A stretch of 64,000 bases of DNA from an uncultured Ruminococcus sp. (lineage in GTDB: Bacteria > Bacillota > Clostridia > Oscillospirales > Ruminococcaceae). This document shows positions 6,630 through 9,842 of the stretch, in pieces. The translations under genes and the position numbers were made by a program. Every line of letters starts with the position of its first letter. The first letter of the stretch is position 1. The notes beneath the pieces are model-generated. The model was not told where the DNA came from and did no database searches. It saw only the letters and a list, made by a program, of their open reading frames with translations. Location of the stretch: the NCBI GenBank assembly GCA_947624295.1, contig CANQJV010000002.1:1-64000 (forward strand), given 5' to 3'.

Positions 6630-7559
6630 TTATTTCTTTTTCCATTTAAGTAAAATAAACGCTGATACTGATGTGATTACAACGGCAAGCACTATTGGAA
6701 ACCATGTGTACGGTAAGGGCAAATCTACCGTATTTATGCCGTAAAATGCAAATATAATATTGGGTATCTGCATTATGATTGTGACAATTGTAAGCCTCCA
6801 CATGACTATATTAAGATTGTTCGAAATGACAGAGGAAAAACCTTCAGTCATACTTGACAGGATACCTGAATATATACTCGCCATTTCAATTGCCTGCTTC
6901 ATTTCGATAAGAACATCTTCCAGTAAATCTTGGTCCTCGTCGTATAATTTGATTACACGTCCACGGAATATTTTTTCTATTGTTGCCTCGTTTGCTTTCA
7001 GGGAAGTGGAAAAGTATACAAGTGATTTTTCAAGCGCAAGTAATTGCATAAGAAGTTCATTTTTCATTGCATCATGTAACTTTTGTTCTGCTGCTGACGA
7101 TAATTTGTCAATTTGTTTAAGATAATACAAAAACAATGCCGCAATTCTCAGAAGTAACTGCAATACAAATCTTGTCTTGAATGCAGGTCTTAAGTTGCGT
7201 ATTGAACCCCGTACAGCTTCATCAATAAGTTGTGATTCGTGCAGTGATATTGTAATGACGTTCTCGTCAGTGATTATTATTCCTATAGGCATTGTAAAGA
7301 AAATTTTCGAATCGGAATCATCTGTTGATGATACAGGCGTGTCAATTATTATCAGAGTTTGTTCGTCCTCACGTTCAATACGTGAAGATTCTTCTTCGTC
7401 AAGAGCTGATTTTACAAATCCGCTGTCAAGCCCTAAATCATCAATCAGGTATTTTACTTCCTGCTGGCTTGGGTCTATTACGGAAATCCAACAGCCTGAT
7501 GATGCTTTTTCAGTATCGCAGATTCTTCCGCTTTCGGACGTTGTGTAGTATTTTATCAT
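6630..7559 (-). CDS. corA: CorA-family Mg2+/divalent cation channel
   Basis: Inner-membrane divalent cation channel of the CorA/MIT superfamily. The long acidic N-terminal cytoplasmic domain is followed by two C-terminal membrane helices. The pore signature after the first helix reads YGINTVDLPLP, matching the family YGMN motif with Ile replacing Met, a known natural variant of the GxN filter. The protein ends in a basic KWKKK. Its 309 residues are normal. The start is supported by AAAGGAG at 7570-7576. The gene has its own promoter, and its leader contains a short uORF and several stems, so expression is probably controlled after initiation, plausibly by Mg2+. The regulation is inferred. Confidence 0.9.
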   Translation of the reverse strand: MIKYYTTSESGRICDTEKASSGCWISVIDPSQQEVKYLIDDLGLDSGFVKSALDEEESSRIEREDEQTLIIIDTPVSSTDDSDSKIFFTMPIGIIITDENVITISLHESQLIDEAVRGSIRNLRPAFKTRFVLQLLLRIAALFLYYLKQIDKLSSAAEQKLHDAMKNELLMQLLALEKSLVYFSTSLKANEATIEKIFRGRVIKLYDEDQDLLEDVLIEMKQAIEMASIYSGILSSMTEGFSSVISNNLNIVMWRLTIVTIIMQIPNIIFAFYGINTVDLPLPYTWFPIVLAVVITSVSAFILLKWKKK

Positions 7560-7800
7560 TTTATATAATCTCCTTTCACCGTTTCAGCATACCAGAGCGC
7601 ACACGGTGAAAAGGCAGATTTTCTGCCCGAAATCGTGCTTATACCAAACTCTCTTATAATTATAAATATTTAATTACAACAGAGTTTAGTATAGTACTTT
7701 GCTATGCTGTTAAATTTGTTCTCCCATACGGGTCGGAACTCATATATATGCACCTCCGGAAAATTTTTTCAACAGACTTATTATTTTTCAGATAAGTCCA
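7560..7800 (-). promoter_or_regulatory. Structured 5' leader of corA with candidate attenuator
   Basis: The leader holds three inverted repeats in order. The first is a 13-bp stem with one G-U pair (7681-7693 with 7640-7652). The second is a 6-bp GGCAGA/TCTGCC hairpin (about 7613-7627), followed on the minus strand by TTTT. The third is a 9-bp stem (7603-7611 with 7574-7582) whose 3' arm overlaps the corA Shine-Dalgarno. A short ORF with its own strong SD ends at 7702, just upstream of the first stem. I compared it by eye with the M-box and yybP-ykoY consensus and saw no match. Confidence 0.6.
7702..7743 (-). CDS. Candidate 13-residue leader peptide upstream of corA
   Basis: On the minus strand GGAGG (7757-7753) is 9 nt from an ATG that opens the frame MSSDPYGRTNLTA, then TAG. 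The spacing and SD strength are as good as those of the real genes in this window. It lies between the mapped promoter (7807-7835) and the stems of the corA leader, so a ribosome stopping at 7702 would cover the start of the 13-bp stem. By analogy, enteric corA and mgtA have the leader peptides CorL and MgtL, but this sequence is not obviously related. It is too short for the ORF track. Confidence 0.6.
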   Translation of the reverse strand: MSSDPYGRTNLTA

Positions 7801-7806
7801 ATTATT

Positions 7807-7835
7807 ATTATATCACATAACCGCTGTAATTTCAA
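7807..7835 (-). promoter_or_regulatory. Sigma-A promoter of corA transcript
   Basis: TTGAAA (7830-7835) and TATAAT (7807-7812) on the minus strand are separated by 17 nt, with a TG one base upstream of the -10 (extended -10). The predicted start is near 7800, giving a leader of about 240 nt. Confidence 0.8.
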
Positions 7836-7882
7836 GAGTTTTGTAAAAATTAACTCATTGCAAATATTTTTTGTTTATTTAC

Positions 7883-7911
7883 TTGACAACTGCACGAATA
7901 AATGATAAAAT
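7883..7911 (+). promoter_or_regulatory. Promoter of the GH5-dockerin gene
   Basis: TTGACA (7883-7888), 17-nt spacer, TAAAAT (7906-7911). It lies divergent from and about 50 bp away from the corA promoter, upstream of the cellulase. Confidence 0.75.
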
Positions 7912-7958
7912 ATATAAAAAAGCAGATTTTTACTGCAAATTGAGAGGGGTAATATATA

Positions 7959-9842
7959 ATGAAAAAATTAACAAAGACTTTGCTTTCGTTTGTATCAGCA
8001 TCAGCATTGTCCGTTACTATGGGCTCATCTATACCTGCTGTAATCGGTCAGACTGAAACTGTATCGGCTGTTGATACTAATAACGATGACTGGCTCCACG
8101 CTGAAGGCAGCCGTCTTTACGATATGAACGGCAACGAAGTATGGATTACAGGCGCAAACTGGTTCGGTCTGAACTGTATCGAATATTCTCCGCATTATCT
8201 CTATGCAGGTGATATTGACGATATGCTTCAGGAAGTCGCTGACAGAGGTATCAATGTTATCCGTTTCCCTATTTCGACTGAACTCATTCTCTCGTGGATG
8301 AACGGTACGCCTTATCAGATAAGCTCGGGCGGTATGCAGGCTGTATATAATCCTCCTGTAGACCAAGATGACGGAAACGGCGGTGTCATTAAAGCAGGAA
8401 CTTATGGTAATCTTAACAAGGATTTCGTTGAGGCTGACGGTAAAACTCTCATCACAAGTGACCGTGGTTTTGATATTATCCTCGATAAGTGCAAAAAATA
8501 CGGTATTAAGGCTTTCATCGATATTCATAGCCCTCACGCTGATAATTCGGGTCATAACTACAATTTGTGGTACGGCAAGGAAACAGCTGACGGTACTATG
8601 ATTACAACGGAAATATGGCAGGATACACTTGTGTGGATTGCTGATAAATACAAAAATAATGATACACTTATCGGCTACGACCTCAAAAATGAACCGCACG
8701 GCAAAGGTCCTGAAGGCGATAAGGCTGCTAAATGGGACGGCTCTACTGATGAGAACAACTGGGCTTATGCCGCTACAAAATGCGCTGAGGCTATACTCGA
8801 TGTCAACCCTAATGCTCTTATTTTCATTGAGGGCGTTGAACAGTCCCTTAGCGGTGCAATGCCCGGCGATTACTGGGGTATCGCTGACAGACGTGATAAT
8901 TCCCCTTATATCGGAGCTTGGTGGGGCGGTAACTTCCGTGGCGCAAGAGAATACCCCATTCAGCCTAAACAGGGTACAAGTCAGATTGTCTACTCTCCGC
9001 ACGATTACGGTCCGTCAGTTTACGCTCAAACATGGTTCGATAAGGATTTCACAACACAAACTCTCCTCGATGATTACTGGTATGATACTTGGGCATATAT
9101 CAACGCTGAAGATATTGCTCCCGAACTCATCGGCGAATGGGGAGGTCATATGGACGGTGCTGAAAATCAGAAGTGGATGGAACTCCTCCGTGACTATATG
9201 ATTAGCCACCATATCAATCATACTTTCTGGTGCCTTAATACAAACTCCGGCGATACAGGCGGATTATGGGCAAATATTTCGTGCGGTCAACAGGCAGGCT
9301 CTACTCAGATTACATGGGAAGAAGAAAAATACGCCCTTCTGGAAAAAGCTCTCTGGCAGACGCAGGAAACAGGTAAATATATCGGTCTCGACCACCAAAT
9401 CGCTCTCGGACAGAACGGTCTTTCACTGAATCAGTTCTATGCTGATTACGCAGGAACTGAGGGAAGTAACCTCGACGGCGGTACTGTCGTAAAGGACGGC
9501 AAACCTGTTGTGACAAATCCCGATGAAAAGCCGACAACTGCACTATCAACTGAAAATCCGACTACCGCAAAACCGTCTGATACTACTACTTCAGCAACCA
9601 CTGACGGCGGACAAAGTGATACAAATCTCCTCGGTGATGCAAATTGCGACGGCGAAGTCAATATGGCTGATGTTGCATCGATAATCCAGCATATAGGTAA
9701 TCACGATGCATATGCGTTGTCGGAACAGGGCGTTGCAAATGTTGATATGTGCGACGGCACTGCCGGTATCACGGGCAATGATGCTTTAGCAGTGCAGTTG
9801 CTTGTGGCAAAACAGATTACTAAGCTCCCGTATGTTGAATGA
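7959..9842 (+). CDS. Secreted GH5 endoglucanase with C-terminal type I dockerin
   Basis: Cellulosomal glycoside hydrolase family 5, probably an endo-beta-1,4-glucanase. A signal peptide covers about residues 1-37. The catalytic (beta/alpha)8 domain spans about 45-500. The acid/base glutamate is in YDLKNEPHG (near residue 245) and the nucleophile in ELIGEWGGH (near 392). A Thr/Ser/Pro-rich linker (about 520-555) leads to a dockerin with two calcium-loop repeats, LLGDANCDGEVNMADVASII and a more divergent second one containing GITGNDALAVQLL. The dockerin is almost the same type as that of ScaC, so both probably dock on the same cohesin. AGAGGGG precedes the ATG. Exact substrate preference is not readable here. 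Confidence 0.93.
   Translation: MKKLTKTLLSFVSASALSVTMGSSIPAVIGQTETVSAVDTNNDDWLHAEGSRLYDMNGNEVWITGANWFGLNCIEYSPHYLYAGDIDDMLQEVADRGINVIRFPISTELILSWMNGTPYQISSGGMQAVYNPPVDQDDGNGGVIKAGTYGNLNKDFVEADGKTLITSDRGFDIILDKCKKYGIKAFIDIHSPHADNSGHNYNLWYGKETADGTMITTEIWQDTLVWIADKYKNNDTLIGYDLKNEPHGKGPEGDKAAKWDGSTDENNWAYAATKCAEAILDVNPNALIFIEGVEQSLSGAMPGDYWGIADRRDNSPYIGAWWGGNFRGAREYPIQPKQGTSQIVYSPHDYGPSVYAQTWFDKDFTTQTLLDDYWYDTWAYINAEDIAPELIGEWGGHMDGAENQKWMELLRDYMISHHINHTFWCLNTNSGDTGGLWANISCGQQAGSTQITWEEEKYALLEKALWQTQETGKYIGLDHQIALGQNGLSLNQFYADYAGTEGSNLDGGTVVKDGKPVVTNPDEKPTTALSTENPTTAKPSDTTTSATTDGGQSDTNLLGDANCDGEVNMADVASIIQHIGNHDAYALSEQGVANVDMCDGTAGITGNDALAVQLLVAKQITKLPYVE

Follow-up and report, generated by a model that had tools for sequence, protein, structure and literature searches.

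Sensing of Mg2+ through the stability of the translating ribosome is understood for a small number of enterobacterial leaders, and in Gram-positive bacteria cis-acting Mg2+ control of transporter genes is exerted by the M-box (ykoK) riboswitch. The E. coli leader peptide MgtL carries the destabilising motif E2-P3-D4-P5, where ribosomes drop off when Mg2+ is low and thereby switch mgtA on; changes of E2 and D4 abolish the effect (PMC11282234). In a study of EttA, an artificial construct required at least the sequence DPEE (PMC11282234). The Salmonella leader ORF mgtQ, which has 8 codons including Asp2 and Glu5, frees the mgtB ribosome-binding site (RBS) via alternative stems (PMC8092293). In E. 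coli, corL translation and corA expression vary inversely, and the leader of corA responds to Mg2+ (PMC11552253). A structured corA motif has been reported from Gammaproteobacteria only (PMC6429828).

We analyzed the leader of a corA gene from an uncultured Ruminococcus sp., located in a stretch of 64,000 nucleotides (contig CANQJV010000002.1, positions 1 to 64,000, hereafter the window), and compared it with corA leaders from the same genus and from other genera, families, orders and classes. No Firmicute corA leader peptide is reported in the literature searched, subscription papers and preprints being outside the search, and we provisionally consider the family to be undescribed so far in Firmicutes.

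Results

The corA locus and its leader

The corA gene (6630..7559, minus strand) encodes a Mg2+ transporter of 309 amino acids (PF01544, E 1.1e-47), and is the sole CorA match in the source assembly, which is about 85% complete. The leader promoter, TTGAAA-17-TATAAT (7807..7835, minus strand), matches the consensus at 11 of 12 positions in a consensus scan, and its second hexamer is preceded by TG, as in promoters of the extended sigma-70 type. The leader that runs from this promoter to the corA ATG is about 240 nt long and contains a short upstream ORF (uORF; 7702..7743, minus strand) encoding the 13-codon leader peptide MSSDPYGRTNLTA, with its ATG at 7743-7741 and its TAG stop at 7704-7702. 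The uORF is preceded by the Shine-Dalgarno (SD) sequence GGAGGTGC (7750..7757, minus strand), in which GGAGGTG is kept in relatives. The promoter, the leader of this length, the SD-preceded ORF and a stem covering part of the corA SD, all of which had been noticed in a preliminary description of this DNA, are present in the window sequence. The divergent neighbor of corA (7883-9842, plus strand) encodes a 627-aa GH5 cellulase with a strong promoter of its own (TTGACA-17-TAAAAT) and a C-terminal region that by eye resembles a dockerin.

The window leader is predicted to fold far more stably than expected from its composition (z -5.6, with 0 of 200 shuffles as stable), and this strong fold owes much to the insertion of a palindromic repeat, described below. 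A small hairpin, GGCAGA-AAA-TCTGCC, is followed by TTTT; a scan for intrinsic terminators on the minus strand of the window leader found none, and T-runs occur in a few of the distant leaders. Comparison of the window leader with Rfam gave no useful match under either the strict (gathering score) or the permissive (E<=5, positions 7400-8000) threshold. For the M-box model in particular, there was no gathering-score match in the window and none at E<=5 within 7400-8000.

Conservation of the uORF within the genus

A uORF of the form M-x-x-D-P-[Y/C]-G was found at the same place in 77 of 80 related corA loci, the three loci without it being L010, L018 and L025. An additional 40 loci, partly from the same species as the first 80, contributed more uORF variants and one more locus without a uORF (L157). 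Among the 94 distinct genus leaders, the peptide starts with M-[S/N/T/K]-[S/A/P/T/V]-D-P-[Y/C/F]-G (M-S-D-P-Y-A in two), has a variable remainder and is 10 to 45 residues long; in Ruminococcus flavefaciens FD-1, for example, it is MSSDPCGSLLNIP. The Asp-Pro pair is present in all 94.

A sequence pattern built on the uORF start matched 96 of the 125 genus genomes, with one match each, except for two matches in the single genome where corA is present as two full-length genes; as a control, the pattern was reversed and gave 0 matches in the 125 genomes. A subset of the non-matching genomes was examined, and these had no CorA match, no uORF, or an SD or start outside the coverage of the pattern. 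The conservation of the uORF is thus far beyond chance, and the check in related genomes that the preliminary description had proposed came out in its favor. One pattern match from another family (L142) lies, by eye, inside a coding gene and was treated as a chance occurrence. In genome G107, contigs C31 and C213 (L020 and L023) carry two corA genes with one Asp-Pro uORF apiece. The genus corA genes that have no uORF (L147, L149, L157 and L159, of which L147, L149 and L159 are the same as L010, L018 and L025, respectively) include three, L149, L157 and L159, in which only a short distance separates the promoter from the corA SD, suggestive of a lost leader.

Constraint at the nucleotide level was also found within the genus uORFs. 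Codon 7 (7723..7725, minus strand, in the window) is GGG in 92 of 94 leaders, compared with a GGG share of Gly codons of 6.5% in the long ORFs of the window and 8.5% in corA genes, the two sets used as the codon-usage reference. GAC (90 of 94) and CCT (79 of 94) are likewise over-used. The segment CCC-UUAU-GGG could form a 3-bp mini-hairpin that is paired in 98.9% of cases and is nearly invariant, so that it offers no covariation. The preference for GGG at codon 7 could reflect this mini-hairpin or a choice made for decoding.

Conservation of Asp-Pro outside the genus

To follow the uORF farther, up to 320 nt upstream of corA were taken from loci of other genera, families and orders, whose CorA proteins are mostly 42-63% identical. 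Of these 132 loci, 83 carry an ORF that follows an SD and whose fourth codon specifies Asp or Glu and fifth codon Pro; dinucleotide shuffles yielded a mean of 1.55 loci (range 0-5) with this pair at codons 4-5. At any other codon position, the acidic-Pro pair occurred in 0-3 loci, as in the shuffles. By taxonomic rank, the motif was present in 46 of 66 loci from the same GTDB family, in 21 of 26 from other families of the order, and in 16 of 40 from other orders of the class, 24 of the 40 having no such motif. These counts are phylogenetically non-independent and, judged by family labels, span about 20 GTDB families. Outside the class, the related starts MDDP, MDGDP or VEADP were seen in 11 of 28 loci.

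The two constrained codons (7729..7734, minus strand, in the window) form the invariant element, kept in all 94 genus leaders and, in the comparison with shuffles outside the genus, tied to codons 4-5 alone. The preliminary description had mentioned the single Asp-Pro pair as a weak indication; it turned out to be the most conserved feature, and its place at codons 4-5 is kept both in the genus and in other families, orders and classes. Outside the genus, codon 4 is GAC, GAT, GAA or GAG, codon 5 is any of the four Pro codons, and ATG (41) and GTG (38) starts are about equally frequent. In the more distant genera, Pro at codon 3 (37 of 83) and an acidic codon 2 (21 of 83) are frequent, no residue is fixed past codon 5, and the length of the uORF over all genus and outside loci ranges from 10 to 50. 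Because the codons change synonymously and between Asp and Glu, both ATG and GTG serve as starts, and the position is fixed, the comparison indicates that it is the five N-terminal residues of the peptide that are under selection. Short SD-preceded ORFs also occur upstream of corA in several more distant Firmicutes (L343, L344, L346, L354, L356 and L365), with the related, not identical, starts MDAGP, MDGWP, MDGAP, MDSGP, MDDAG and MDSGD; these are perhaps relaxed versions of the Asp-Pro leader.

Alternative helices downstream of the uORF start

In the genus leaders, three arms follow the uORF start in this order: F, the 5' arm, with its beginning 38-46 nt into the leader in most of them; M, the middle arm; and S, the SD arm. 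F and S are alike and compete for M. Tested against shuffles, 65 of 94 leaders reached p<=0.05 for F:M, 47 of 94 for M:S, and 39 of 94 for both. To assess covariation, we used a structure-blind alignment of 61 genus leaders, with two controls: sliding the columns, which removes relatedness, and shuffling, which leaves relatedness in. F:M was 91% paired with 63 double-sided changes, of which sliding by 1-3 columns left at most 17; for M:S, pairing was 81% and double-sided changes numbered 30, against at most 9 after sliding. Neither value was reached in any of 500 shuffles. The covariation of stems in relatives, which the preliminary description had looked to as a check, is therefore found for both pairings, and two mutually exclusive helices in the genus, one of them covering the corA SD, are supported by the alignment. 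The F:M segment was more stable than M:S in 57 of 75 leaders, and in many it was also longer.

The influence of a translating ribosome was assessed by masking a ribosome-sized footprint at successive uORF positions and predicting SD accessibility. This profile was chosen after a comparison of a ribosome at the stop with a ribosome at Asp-Pro, which, for the 71 genus leaders with a uORF stop at least 20 nt upstream of the SD, revealed no difference overall. Predicted accessibility falls from 0.275 with the A-site at codons 6-9 to 0.197 with the ribosome over F, and climbs again after the ribosome passes about codon 20; the fall is a small effect, followed by 39 leaders and opposed by 6. For free RNA in the genus the predicted value is 0.255, as against 0.275 with a ribosome near Asp-Pro. 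In the 23 remaining genus leaders, the uORF stop lies near or past the SD, and predicted accessibility is 0.54 with the ribosome at the stop versus 0.28 for free RNA.

Outside the genus, predicted SD accessibility is 0.40 with a ribosome near Asp-Pro versus 0.30 for free RNA. The output there appears diverse, with SD hairpins and with stops that abut the SD; in 28 of 82 uORFs from other genera, the stop is past the SD or no more than 13 nt away from it. The three-arm test, applied with a crude choice of SD, gave a weak result outside the genus (11 and 4 of 58 at p<=0.05). The spacing between the corA SD and ATG is bimodal in the genus (L004, L033, L035 and most other loci), at either 6-15 nt or 28-55 nt, and in long-spacing cases inspected by eye a small hairpin lies between SD and start, as if it shortened the distance.

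A palindromic repeat in the window leader

In the window, the middle (anti-SD) arm CTTTTCACCGT (7603..7613, minus strand) is complementary to the SD arm ACGGTGAAAGG (7572..7582, minus strand), which overlaps the corA SD (GGAG, 7573-7570) and is indicated by fold, complementarity and the covariation in the genus. The M:S pairing is clear in this copy (p 0.01), and the F:M pairing is not (p 0.93); a weak candidate for a remnant of the 5' arm, TAAGCACG (7634..7641, minus strand), was found by eye in comparison with L002. A 54-bp palindromic, MITE-like repeat (7640..7693) with the ends TATACTAAACTCT separates the uORF stop from the F/M/S region; its 13-bp stem (7693-7681 / 7652-7640) begins 8 nt past that stop. 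Another copy in the source genome is 82% identical, partial copies are also present (other copies are at L224-L228), and the end sequence occurs at 9 places in the source genome. With up to 2 mismatches allowed, the end sequence was absent from the 124 other genus genomes.

The preliminary description had counted the 13-bp stem among the regulatory parts of the leader. We rejected it as an antiterminator, as it belongs to a dispersed repeat, an insertion outside the conserved regulator that is restricted to this genome. With a ribosome at the window uORF stop, the F region is out of reach, and control in the window's own copy may have been weakened or changed by the insertion. Owing to the insertion and the weak F:M pairing, the window is a good pointer to the family and a poor representative of it.

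Discussion

We estimate a probability of about 0.6 that the uORF encodes a leader peptide with a regulatory role and is a Firmicute functional analogue of MgtL, which would turn corA on at low Mg2+. In the proposed mechanism, the acidic and proline-containing N-terminus (D/E4 and P5, often with P3 or an acid at codon 2) would destabilize the elongating ribosome at low Mg2+. At high Mg2+, the ribosome would pass Asp-Pro and cover the 5' arm (beginning about 40 nt into the leader), leaving the middle arm to pair with the corA SD and corA off. At low Mg2+, drop-off of the ribosome in the vicinity of codon 5 would let the 5' arm pair with the middle arm and keep the SD free, such that the importer is made. 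We infer that a ribosome on the uORF chooses between the helices, that it leaves or pauses at Asp-Pro, and that low Mg2+ is the signal. This reading is supported by the fixed position of the acidic-Pro pair, by the presence of one uORF per genome, in front of corA, and by the covariation of both helices. The accessibility profile also agrees in direction with repression of corA by full translation of the uORF, whereas the ribosome-at-stop comparison does not. Counting against the reading, E-P-D-P is a stronger motif than one D-P pair, the motif is absent from 24 of 40 loci in other orders of the class, and in the 23 late-stop leaders translation is predicted to open the SD.

The resemblance to MgtL of E. 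coli and Salmonella consists of a short SD-preceded uORF before a Mg2+ transporter gene, an acidic and proline-containing N-terminus with D4-P5 at identical codons, conserved as D/E4-P5 in 83 of the 132 outside-genus loci of the corA family, and exclusive leader structures, among which translation of the MgtL uORF selects and which in the corA family are indicated by covariation in the genus. Unlike MgtL, the corA family belongs to another phylum, precedes corA rather than the P-type ATPase gene mgtA, and has neither a fixed acid at codon 2 nor an MgtL-like tail. Moreover, its output in the genus appears to be sequestration of the SD, whereas MgtL acts through Rho-dependent termination. The simplest reading of the shared D4-P5 is convergence. 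With mgtQ of the Salmonella mgtB leader, the family shares a tiny uORF with early acidic codons, alternative stems, and release, predicted in the corA family, of a sequestered RBS at the translational level; however, mgtQ is intergenic within an operon, has 8 codons and no fixed Pro, whereas the corA-family uORF is the first ORF of its transcript, has D/E-P at codons 4-5 and is widespread in another phylum. The corL/corA motif likewise concerns a corA leader that contains a uORF and can adopt either of two exclusive structures, but it belongs to Gammaproteobacteria, is Rho-dependent, and its peptide has fewer acidic and proline residues than that of mgtL. The M-box resembles the control proposed for the family in acting in cis on Mg2+ transporter genes of Gram-positive bacteria, and differs from it as an aptamer that requires no uORF; the window leader matches no Rfam family.

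Several other explanations have to be weighed against the MgtL-like reading. The ribosome might pause at Asp-Pro, in dependence on EF-P or an ABC-F protein, and stay on the mRNA; held at codons 4-6, it would leave the 5' arm free and corA on, and the signal might be translation capacity or the status of Pro-tRNA or EF-P, instead of or besides Mg2+. The invariant Pro at codon 5, the common Pro at codon 3, and a predicted SD accessibility near Asp-Pro at least equal to that of free RNA, in the genus and outside it, fit such a pause. We nevertheless consider it unlikely, as the start contains no Pro-Pro and in many members one proline only, the acidic residue at codon 4 varies as little as the proline, and the target is a Mg2+ transporter. 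A positive role of the uORF, in which finishing ribosomes open a hairpin over the corA SD by translational coupling and drop-off lowers corA, would suit the high accessibility predicted at the stop of the 23 late-stop genus leaders and the stops close to or beyond the SD in other genera. It is a decidedly doubtful explanation for the family: it would have an importer shut down when Mg2+ is low, it does not fit the 71 early-stop leaders, a ribosome sitting at one of these late stops would occlude the SD, and the E. coli leaders corL and mgtL have a negative effect (PMC11552253).

The nucleotide-level constraint seen in GGG at codon 7 and in the over-use of GAC and CCT, together with the strong structure of the leader, might instead be taken to indicate a protein-free riboswitch or a protein-binding RNA in which the ORF is incidental. 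Codons 1-5, however, vary synonymously and between Asp and Glu outside the genus while D/E-P stays behind the SD, and Rfam offers no match, so that we regard an element of this kind as very improbable. The preliminary description had proposed a Firmicute translation-coupled attenuator sensing either Mg2+ or a charged tRNA; comparison strongly supports its Mg2+-linked core and does not support the tRNA part. A classical attenuator responding to charged Asp, Pro or Tyr tRNA would have in its favor just the SD-preceded ORF, as would a small protein with a function of its own, and for either the odds are slight in the extreme: there is no run of one amino acid's codons, the residues after codon 5 vary freely, and the length ranges from 10 to 50. 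The leader-peptide family itself is real and most probably has a mode of action like that of MgtL and mgtQ.

We lean, at slightly better than even odds, toward the view that Firmicutes have their own widespread Mg2+-sensing corA leader peptide, separate from MgtL and acting via ribosome instability at D/E4-P5, with SD sequestration rather than Rho as its output in the Ruminococcus group. If this is true, Mg2+ sensing by ribosome stability would be a general, convergently evolved sensor across Clostridia, and the natural variants, which are available by dozens (MDGDP, VNPDP, VSPEP and MDDP among them), would reveal which short N-termini evolution uses for Mg2+ sensing. It would also predict how Mg2+ uptake is controlled in gut bacteria of the Ruminococcus group.
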